Of a DNA stretch of 64,000 bases, positions 60,714 to 64,000 are shown piece by piece. A program made the position numbers and the translations under genes. Position 1 is the stretch's first letter, and the number at the start of each line of letters is the position of its first letter. Below the pieces are notes generated by a model, which was not told where the DNA came from, searched no databases, and worked only from the letters and a program-made list of their open reading frames with translations. Source of the stretch: a virus. The DNA lies in the IMG/VR virus record IMGVR_UViG_3300042566_001512, positions 124,001-188,000 of that record; one strand, written 5' to 3'.

Positions 60714-63141
60714 ATGGATAAACTGGACGTGCCTTTTAACATATTTTTTCTTAGACTAGACGAGCTTACCGTTAAGTACCTCAAGCCCGTGACTTCCCTT
60801 GACGTCTTTGATGGCCTTACTAAAAACCTCCATCCGGATGGATTATATTCGCCATCCATATTCGGCGTGGTTGGAAGTAATAATAGATACACAAAATTCT
60901 CCTATATAGACATAAAGGTAAAAATAATGCACCCGGTGTATTATAAAGCAATTACCTCTATGAAATCATTATACGAATCCATAATGACCTCAAAAGAGTT
61001 TGCGGTCTGGGACCAGGAAAAAAAGGACTTTGTAAAGTCAAACGCGTTGGCAGGGCAAACCGGTTACGACTTCTTTATACAGCACTGTGATAGCATAGTG
61101 CACGAAGAAAGACCGTCTACCGATAGACAGGAAAACATATCACTTATAAATAAATATAAACAAAATTATTTATACGATAAAATCATCGTACTTCCGGCGG
61201 CATATAGGGACATTGAAATAGATGACAATGGAAGAGAATCCTCAGATGAGATAAATTCGCTTTATTACAAAATCATAGCGATATCAAACACAATAAACAT
61301 TAACACCGTAAGAATCTCACCTGAAGCTTACAACACCCAGAGAATGTCCCTGCAAAGAGCATTCAACGACACATACGAGTATCTCTCTAACCTAATTAGA
61401 GGAAAGAGTAATCTCTTTATGGGCAAGTGGGCGTCTCGAAAAATATTTAACGGGACTAGAAACGTAATTACCTCAATGAACGTTACTCAAACTGAGCTAG
61501 GAGCACCCAATTCAATAAACTACAACGACACGCTTGTTGGGCTGTACCAAACTTTAAAAGGCATTTTGCCAGTAACGTTATACAGATTAAAAACTGGGTT
61601 TTTATCTGGAGTATTTCCATCAATAAGCTCACCTGCTCTATTGACTAATAAGACAACGTTAAAATCAGAAAAAGTTGTTTTAAAGACTGCCATATATGAC
61701 AAGTGGATGACCAATGAAGGATTGGAGTCACTTATTAGCTCTTATAAAGAACCATCAATCAGACACGACTATGTCACAGTGGACAACTATTATCTAGGTT
61801 TAATTTATAGGGGGCCGGATAATACTTTTAAATTGATACACGGAATAGACGAACTTCCTGAGGACAGAGATCCAAAAGACTGCAGGCCTATCAGCTTGAC
61901 GGAGTTATTTTATTGTTCAATCTACGAAATTACGGACAATTACCCAGCACTAGTAACGCGGTATCCAGTAACCGGAGTCGGTAGCATATACCCGTCTATG
62001 GCTAAATTAAAATCAACGATAGAAGTGGAAAAGAGATATAAGCTAGGGGTAGACTGGACTGTAGATCCACAATCTAAAGTGGCCTACGAATTCCCAACTC
62101 AAACTGATTTATTCAGTGCTCTGTCTCCCCATCCTTTTAAACTAGGTAGACTTTCAGCTGATGGTTTTAAATGTAAGACTATATAAAACGGTTTTACATT
62201 TTAATCACGTCCTGTTTTGCAGAAATGCGAAATAAGATTCTTCCTTAATTGCTGGGACATCTTGACACGTTAAAAGCTACAACGTAATGCGAAAGCATAG
62301 GCGCGAATGCTTGAAAATTTTAACGTAAGACAATCAGCAGCGAAGCTCCTGCTCCCCGCCTAAACGGGAAAGGAGAACGTTCAACGGCCAGCCCTTAAGC
62401 AAGGGGTAGGAGCAAGTGCTCCGAAATGGGAAGCGCCTTACCAGCAATTGCTAGGAAGGTGAAGATATGGTCTTACCTGCATGGAGACATGCAGCGGCTT
62501 CTAATGGAAAGCCGGTAAGCGAGGTAACGTGCGCTTATTGAAAACACGTGTTCGACGGCGATTAAAAGTTATATTAACCCTCAATACCCTCGGGTTAAAA
62601 CGAGTTAATTTATAACACAAAAAGGTTGCCTATTCGCAGTAATGTGAATATAAAAAAATCTCTCTAATTGCTGGGACTCCTCGTTAAACCACTAAGACTA
62701 CAACGCAGCGCGAAAGCGCAGACGTGAGAGTTTGAAAACATTAGTGGGTAGAGACAATCAGCAGCTAAGACCCTTACTGCATATAAATTGCAAATGGGTA
62801 AAGTTCAACGACTAGATCGAAAGATCGTACCGTGTCAAGTGACGCGGGAAACGGGAGACTCCGGTTTTTACCGGATGAAGATATAGTCTTGTCTATGCGG
62901 AGACGCGTAGCTGTGGGATAGCATTTACTTCCCTTTAAAACGAAACAGGTTAACGCCCCTGTTTGAAAACCTAACGACAAGTAGTTGTAACTTCCTCTAC
63001 TCCGAAGATTCTATTAAAGAAATTTATGATTTTTTTAATAACACTCGGTGCTACGTAGGAACTGATGGAAAATTTATTAATAGTTTAGAAATAGATACGG
63101 TTAAATACGTTTTACATAACCTCACAGGAGAACCACAATAA
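60714..63141 (+). CDS. RNA polymerase beta-prime subunit, N-terminal part, split by two group I introns
   Basis: Spliced coding segments: 60714-62162, 62551-62562 and 62977-63141, giving 541 residues. The first segment has beta-prime landmarks: GLYSPSIFG (43-51) like the N-terminal clamp, LFMGKWASRKIFNGTRNVIT (about 234-253) like the KRVDFSGRSVI region, and TRYPVTGVGSIYPS (415-428) before the active site. It ends LGRLSAD. The 12-nt exon supplies FDGD and the third continues TSSCNFLYSEDSIKE, so the product reads SADFDGDTSSCNF, the metal-binding motif. Without splicing, translation stops at 62186 after 490 residues, with no FDGD. AGGAG precedes the ATG; the stop overlaps the next ATG. Confidence 0.85.
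62163..62550 (+). ncRNA. Group I intron 1 (388 nt, no ORF)
   Basis: Core segments in order: TAATTGCTGGGAC (62246), GACAATCAGCAGC (62329), GTTCAACGGCCAG (62379) and GAAGATATGGTC (62461). The P7 strands GGCCA (62386-62390) and TGGTC (62468-62472) pair with one wobble. The last base is G, after TTGAAAACACGT. The 5' border is set by the protein (SAD then FDGD), and the preceding exon base is T, as the family requires. The internal guide at the place homologous to intron 2, GTCCTG, pairs with CAG and GAT of the exon only if CT bulges out. No homing endonuclease is encoded. Confidence 0.85.
62551..62562 (+). other. 12-nt exon encoding FDGD
   Basis: TTCGACGGCGAT, four codons that form the core of the RNA polymerase catalytic loop. 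The next in-frame codon is TAA, so the following intron must begin here. The exon's last six bases pair fully with the guide of intron 2. Confidence 0.85.
62563..62976 (+). ncRNA. Group I intron 2 (414 nt, no ORF)
   Basis: Core segments: TAATTGCTGGGAC (62665), GACAATCAGCAGC (62753), GTTCAACGACTAG (62803) and GAAGATATAGTC (62877). P7 pairs perfectly (GACTA 62810-62814 with TAGTC 62884-62888). P1 forms between the exon end GGCGAT and the guide GTTGCC (62625-62630), with the expected U-G pair at the cut site. It ends TTTGAAAACCTAACG with the terminal G at 62976. The core resembles intron 1 closely, so the two are related. No ORF longer than chance on the plus strand. Confidence 0.9.
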
Positions 63142-64000
63142 TGAATAATCAACAAGTTTTTTATAAAACATACGGAGTTAGAAACGTAAATGAACTCGCT
63201 TCTCCTAGACTTTTTGATCTAGTAGAATTTGTGTTTCCTTTTAACAGCATAATGCACTATGCGACTTATGACTCCATTGAGAACGGCCCGCCTGGTGACT
63301 ATCCGCTGTTTAACCAAATAAAGAAACCGATATACTTTAAGACAATAAACGAAATATCTGCTTTTAATGGCAGCCCAAGGCTGCAGGCCATAAACACGCA
63401 GGAACTAGTTAGGGATTACAGAAATAACAATAGGCGAATGAAGTTACTGCAGGGAGAGGTTCAAAACGTATCGGACCCTACTGTATTAACCGTATTTAAT
63501 TACTGCATATTAAATAAACAATACAAATATGCCCGCAACTTATTTACGGACTATCATCGCTGGAAGAATATATTTACAACAGTTATAGACACTTTAGTAA
63601 ATAGACTTTCTAGCCCACAAATAAACCACTATATACCGCTGACTATACCGGATATAATACCTAGCATGATTCAGTTAGATTTGGCCTCCAAAGGGCTTAA
63701 TCAGTCGAACCTAAAAGTATTCAAAGACAATAATAGTTTTATGCTTTTAGAGTTATGGAAGTGGCTCAATCCTGCGACTAGTTCTGATAGTCTTTTTAGC
63801 AAAATACCTATTAACAGAATTCATCTAGTTAATCTGGTTTATATTAAAAGAAACAAGTGGTGCGTTTTAAATTTAGGCGTAATAAATAGCTTTAAGGAAG
63901 TCAGTGGGGACGCCCTTAAACCAGAAAACACACCAATTGTGCTATCTAGGGTGAAGCTCAAATACGTTCAGATACAAAAACGTATACTGAACATGATGAT
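63141..64000 (+). CDS. Unknown protein, 5' part (runs off the window)
   Basis: Starts in a TAATG overlap with the beta-prime gene, with AGGAG 10 bases upstream, and stays open to the edge (286 codons). The N-terminus has RLFDLVEFVFPFNSIMHY; the sequence is rich in Asn, Tyr and Ile like the other structural genes. Coupling to the polymerase gene could mean a polymerase-related or virion protein. I do not recognise it. Confidence 0.7.
   Translation, partial: MNNQQVFYKTYGVRNVNELASPRLFDLVEFVFPFNSIMHYATYDSIENGPPGDYPLFNQIKKPIYFKTINEISAFNGSPRLQAINTQELVRDYRNNNRRMKLLQGEVQNVSDPTVLTVFNYCILNKQYKYARNLFTDYHRWKNIFTTVIDTLVNRLSSPQINHYIPLTIPDIIPSMIQLDLASKGLNQSNLKVFKDNNSFMLLELWKWLNPATSSDSLFSKIPINRIHLVNLVYIKRNKWCVLNLGVINSFKEVSGDALKPENTPIVLSRVKLKYVQIQKRILNMM

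Follow-up and report, generated by a model that had tools for sequence, protein, structure and literature searches.

A four-codon exon on the catalytic motif of a jumbo-phage virion RNA polymerase, set between two predicted group I introns

Group I introns in the RNA polymerase genes of jumbo phages are already known (PMC11620839), as is a small exon between two phage introns (PMC11878797). In the chimallivirus PhiPA3, the gp210 intron lies in an RNA polymerase beta gene right after two conserved aspartates, and carries an HNH endonuclease responsible for interfering with a co-infecting phage (PMC11620839). In phages SIOphi and Twort a short exon is flanked by two group I introns, with splicing shown by cDNA (PMC11878797). 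A polymerase of the phiKZ type is interrupted close to its catalytic motif: in the cultured phage T2P the non-virion beta' gene carries a 484-nt interruption at N/ADFDGD (here and below a slash marks the position of the interruption), and the PDB 7ogp chain of phiKZ gp55 is named PHIKZ055 plus PHIKZ056.1, which agrees with a joined product having DFDGD at residues 417-421 (PMC8287921). Outside phages, placozoan mitochondrial cox1 contains a 1-bp exon (PMC5436844), and mitochondrial exons of under about 4 codons have been noted as regular (PMC10352661).

The DNA analysed here (the window, 64,000 nt) comes from the 208,807-bp virus record of a jumbo phage, where it spans bases 124001-188000. A first-pass annotation, made from the sequence alone, had proposed that two group I introns in a beta' gene isolate the residues FDGD on a 12-nt coding exon, and this is the best reading in every sequence test available to us. 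The DD-type site of PhiPA3 gp210 is also used in the beta gene of this genome and in several relatives, but where gp210 has a single intron with a nuclease, the window phage has six introns in its virion polymerase genes and two mini-exons. The T2P and phiKZ type differs in having one interruption, upstream of the motif, and no mini-exon. In SIOphi and Twort the gene concerned is that of a metabolic enzyme, whereas here exons of 6-12 nt fall on the catalytic motif of an RNA polymerase and recur in two genes and many phages, with splicing predicted from sequence. Mitochondrial mini-exons are alike in being tiny coding exons between organelle-type self-splicing introns; they differ in belonging to organelle genes, and we found no report of their centring on, or recurring at, one catalytic motif. 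Nor did we find in the openly licensed literature any report of phage exons of such size or of repeated carving of DFDGD.

By homology, the split gene is that of the N-terminal beta' subunit of a jumbo-phage virion RNA polymerase. The joined protein (541 aa) is colinear with phrog_2986 (residues 2-537 on 2-538/539, E 2.9e-190), and exon 1, an open frame that keeps the invariant residues of the family, has tblastn matches in 295 phage records (38-47% identity among the matches listed), with the homologue in Erwinia phage RAY annotated as putative vRNAP beta' subunit 1. The downstream neighbour is the large beta subunit (phrog_3148); a search of solved structures with the virion beta' protein gave no match. 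Joining in silico yields ...SADFDGDTSS..., in which the last D of exon 1 and the FDGD of the mini-exon make up DFDGD, the Mg2+-binding motif. As first proposed, one aspartate comes from exon 1 and the other two from TTCGACGGCGAT; in DxDGD the three aspartates hold the catalytic Mg2+ (PMC7598289). The borders originally given for the exons and for the 388-nt and 414-nt gaps proved exact to the base (Table 1).

Table 1. Features of the split beta' gene, other intron sites in the same genome, and mini-exon layouts in non-virion beta' genes of related phages. Plain positions are those of the window; a slash marks an intron position.
Feature	Position	Strand	Description and basis
Exon 1, virion RNAP N-terminal beta' gene	60714..62162	+	483 aa, ending ...LGRLSAD; phrog_2986, tblastn, splice alignment
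Intron 1, group I, 388 nt, site D/F	62163..62550	+	RF00028, 83.6 bits over 62190-62494; borders (62163, 62550) set by protein; exon-final T, intron-final G
Intron 1 P7 5' strand GGCCA	62386..62390	+	pairs with 62468-62472
Intron 1 P7 3' strand TGGTC	62468..62472	+	pairs with 62386-62390
12-nt mini-exon TTCGACGGCGAT (FDGD)	62551..62562	+	splice alignment, shuffles, phrog_2986, intron-less orthologues
Intron 2 P1 exon strand GGCGAT	62557..62562	+	6 bp with 62625-62630; terminal U.G pair
Intron 2, group I, 414 nt, site DGD/T	62563..62976	+	RF00028, 88.8 bits over 62597-62910; borders (62563, 62976) set by protein; exon-final T, intron-final G; begins with TAA, immediately 3' of TTCGACGGCGAT
Intron 2 internal guide sequence GTTGCC	62625..62630	+	pairs with GGCGAT, 62557-62562
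Intron 2 P7 5' strand GACTA	62810..62814	+	pairs with 62884-62888
Intron 2 P7 3' strand TAGTC	62884..62888	+	pairs with 62810-62814
Exon 3, TSSCNFLYSEDS...GEPQ	62977..63142	+	first bases ACAAGT; stop TAA 63140-63142
Virion RNAP beta gene, start (adjoining)	63141..64000	+	phrog_3148, splice alignment; to about genome position 192838
Virion beta gene, four intron sites			after GD (/LPIRK); after DD; after the 11-nt exon CCAAAACGAGT; after GD (/KGVF)
Virion beta gene, 11-nt mini-exon CCAAAACGAGT	genome 191104-191114 (L009:7104-7114)		PKRV, last codon shared; splice alignment
Non-virion beta' gene, group I intron, 724 nt	genome 17656-18379 (L011)		site DFDG/D
Relative G002, non-virion beta' (L039)	G002:C1:79059-80515		RA/PNAD/FDG/D; mini-exons of 12 and 9 nt
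Relative G004, non-virion beta'			RA/PNADFDG/; 21 nt
Relatives L052 and L056, non-virion beta'			NA/DFDG/D; 12 nt; two RF00028 matches at the motif in each
Relative L145, non-virion beta'			20-nt mini-exon; RF00028 support
Relative L203, non-virion beta'			NAD/FDG/D; 9 nt; two RF00028 matches at the motif
Relative L189, non-virion beta'			G/FNAD/FDGD/Q; 11 and 12 nt; three RF00028 matches
Relative L201, non-virion beta'			PN/AD/FDGD/A; 6 and 12 nt; three RF00028 matches, two weak

A covariance search, suggested along with the original proposal, matched both introns over the whole of RF00028 (1-253 of 253; E 8.6e-20 for intron 1 and 2.4e-21 for intron 2, both scoring above the gathering score of 50 bits). 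Both gaps had been credited with a complete core, a paired P7 and a terminal G, and in each the P7 is intact and the last base is G. The change of the P7 pair from GGCCA with TGGTC in intron 1 to GACTA with TAGTC in intron 2 is a compensating one, and P7 is fully paired in all 30 introns of our set in which a pattern search located both strands, two double changes included. Group I introns have a U at the end of the 5' exon, paired with a guide G, and a G as their own last base; the corresponding T and G stand at both introns of the window. The P1 helix of intron 2 is strong and lies entirely within the mini-exon, so that prior removal of intron 1 is unnecessary, while that of intron 1 is weak (GAT with GTC, plus a bulged CAG with CTG). 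No P10 was evident in either intron, and neither has an ATG-started ORF of at least 60 aa that could be a homing endonuclease. Their similarity is confined to a single 137-nt patch (70% identity), so neither is a recent tandem copy of the other; the intron tree resolves them poorly, including whether they are sisters.

When the two introns were shuffled 20,000 times, the sequence G/TTYGAYGGNGAT arose by chance once (5e-5). A splice-aware aligner, custom-written for this analysis, placed identical borders without any splice-site bonus when given the proteins of Burkholderia phage FLC9 or Klebsiella phage Eowyn, both intron-less at the motif, and with the bonus it called a second intron in none of 40 interior shuffles. 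The motif shuffles and the alignment shuffles together led us to reject a chance origin of the FDGD mini-exon, and the intron-less orthologues read ADFDGDT at the same position. Since they were recovered without the bonus, the T and G letters at the window's two introns are independent evidence; in the relatives, where border calling rewarded these letters, their uniformity is not. A low intron penalty (18) gave spurious tiny exons, and we used higher penalties and rechecked the key cases by explicit joining. Exons of 6 nt fall below what the aligner can place, and we set them manually, guided by the protein and by the 3' ends that the introns have in common.

The original proposal was held open to refutation by a second, intact beta' gene with DFDGD, and the second beta' gene of this genome turned out to be split as well, within the motif. 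This gene, a non-virion beta' related to phiKZ gp55 (PDB 7ogp, E 6e-67), has a group I intron holding a 116-aa ORF without a Pfam match. No uninterrupted DFDGD occurs in any of the six frames of the record, a metagenome contig of unstated completeness, and from this both phage polymerases appear to rely on splicing for the motif. In all, the record gives ten RF00028 matches at E <= 0.001, two of which are probably halves of the one non-virion intron. Four more group I introns lie in the virion beta gene, all with exon-final T and intron-final G in the bonus-assisted alignment; the first scores 47.2 bits, just below the 50-bit cut-off. Directly past the conserved DD of this subunit, the mini-exon CCAAAACGAGT, recovered only with the splice-site bonus, sits between two of these introns. 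None of the six virion-gene introns contains an ORF of at least 100 aa, and five of the six follow a GAT codon. Guides of the GTC or GTT type that pair with GAT and end in U.G are clear for intron 2 and for the first beta intron and weak for the others. A 51-nt patch, 96% identical, is shared by the third beta intron (L009:7280-7330) and the non-virion beta' intron (L011:18217-18267, approximate positions), and suggests exchange between introns inside one genome.

Two further group I elements were seen elsewhere in the record. One is an intron on the minus strand (genome 46511-46836, L012:6511-6836) in an apparent B-family DNA polymerase gene, assigned by eye only, which reads ...DLDVAGSYPNGG past the intron. 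The other, a 51-bit match at genome 87260-87472 (L013:7260-7472), lies downstream of an HNH-like ORF, in a region where no gene stands out; tRNA genes are found a few kb from it.

At the level of related phages, the motif is intron-free in most of 80 virion beta' loci, FLC9 and Eowyn likewise. Among these 80, four have an intron at D/F alone (L099, L106, L111 and L115) and a fifth has it as D/Y (L134), while one has an intron at DGD/K alone (L143). Each of the window's two sites is therefore found occupied on its own at other loci, in keeping with insertions that were separate events. The layout D/FD/GD, with a 6-nt exon TTCGAT and an RF00028 match on either side, is seen in three contigs (G002-G004). 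By itself a 6-nt match is weak, arising in 8% of shuffles, and the predicted exon rests on the two complete cores, the common intron 3' ends and its presence in three contigs. In one further virion beta' locus (L137:6353-6826) the protein reads ADFD/KLT over a 474-nt intron; its GD codons are missing and could be recovered only through a GGTGAT near the 5' end.

The non-virion beta' gene gives a similar picture. An intron near the motif is absent from 51 of the 72 newly scanned loci, and several others are cut into stacked pieces (Table 1), among them that of G002, with four successive group I introns and two consecutive mini-exons. Besides T2P, the cultured phage PS119XW is interrupted in this region, immediately after DFDGD. 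We also noted a DFDG mini-exon in L204:5746-6485, where the second intron has no clean in-frame T and G borders. The arrangement had been called very unusual, which needs qualification, as it is not unique: other phages have exons of 6, 9, 11, 12 and 20-21 nt at the motif. The relatives are, as far as their sequences indicate, independent cases in which the motif was carved into pieces of 6-21 nt, and the spot is a predicted repeated landing site for introns.

Evidence of mobility comes from the same relatives. Pfam identifies HNH/NUMOD endonucleases encoded in their introns at D/Y, DD and A/D, and there are further large HNH-like ORFs in introns at GD/K and A/P. Signs of copying from site to site are visible as well. 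Within one contig, the intron at DD of the beta gene (L030) and that at D/F of the beta' gene (L111) are 85% identical over 300 nt, and the G002 introns at FD/GD (virion) and D/F (non-virion) are sisters in the intron tree (98/100). The evidence as a whole is very probably best explained by mobile group I introns that have repeatedly inserted at the GAT codons for the active-centre aspartates of the RNA polymerase, and the mini-exon is best read as a by-product of two nearby insertions. In this scheme, two independent mobile introns would have entered the catalytic DFDGD codons, at D/F and DGD/T, leaving 12 nt between them, and the ribozyme of each intron would remove that intron from the mRNA. 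Excision of intron 1 would bring exon 1 and the mini-exon together, the guide of intron 2 would pair within the mini-exon, and full splicing would restore the uninterrupted protein. The active-centre GAT codons of both phage polymerases would serve as repeated targets, reached through homing from phage to phage, driven by endonucleases, and through copying from one site to another in the same genome; the introns of the window may have lost an endonuclease or never had one. That splicing occurs in infected cells, how efficient it is and in what order it proceeds, the route of mobility and any advantage for the phage are inferred from sequence.

Mis-splicing by the two introns could link exon 1 directly to exon 3, and a regulated version of this, in which in-frame skipping of the mini-exon (SAD/TSS) gives a catalytically dead beta' that acts as a switch or a dominant-negative subunit, would suit an exon of 12 nt, which preserves the frame, and an intron 2 guide able, by inspection, to pair with GCTGAT of exon 1 at about four positions, counting wobbles. 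Skipping of an exon between group I introns is known from Twort and SIOphi (PMC11878797). However, mini-exons are not always multiples of three (11 nt in the beta gene of the window phage and in L189), and skipping these would shift the frame, making a conserved switch unlikely; nor can regulation be conserved when most relatives have no intron at the site. We consider regulated skipping improbable. Still less probable is a dying or dead gene copy, with introns that no longer splice and a phage that uses another polymerase: the weak P1 of intron 1 would fit such decay, but exon 1 is open with its invariant residues, both cores are complete, the joined protein is full length, and an intron also splits the one further beta' gene that was found.

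The remaining two readings are scarcely credible. The source is a metagenome contig and might in principle contain a chimera or a tandem duplication of an intron; the low similarity of introns 1 and 2, alike in a single patch, led us to reject duplication, and independent records show single-site introns, the D/FDGD/x layout itself (L189 and L201) and other stacked layouts. Two adjacent introns could also be a twintron, with intron 2 nested in intron 1 and TTCGACGGCGAT a chance piece of internal intron sequence. Such nesting would join SAD to TSS and lose the FDGD that orthologues carry, each core has T and G borders of its own, and the motif is poorly explained by chance given the shuffles described above. 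We rejected a twintron, in which no exon lies between the introns, as here 12 coding nt between two complete introns complete the protein.

Beyond repeated insertion at aspartate codons, a broader and rather doubtful proposal is that the catalytic motif of jumbo-phage RNA polymerases is under continual competition among mobile introns. Successive introns would land within 6-12 nt of one another at Asp codons; as a neighbouring intron leaves little of a long endonuclease target intact, newcomers would use reverse splicing, which would need a guide match of only 4-6 nt; and the stacked introns would shield an essential gene from several rival endonucleases simultaneously. We put this forward tentatively, as one joint claim.

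If the predicted splicing takes place, an essential motif of three aspartates would be assembled only through RNA splicing, from an exon of four codons. Automatic annotation would call such RNA polymerase genes broken or catalytically incomplete. Two questions become testable with the stacked mini-exons that recur in both polymerases of related phages: what the lower size limit of a coding exon is for group I ribozymes, and by what route a second mobile intron gains entry once another has broken up the site only a few bases away.
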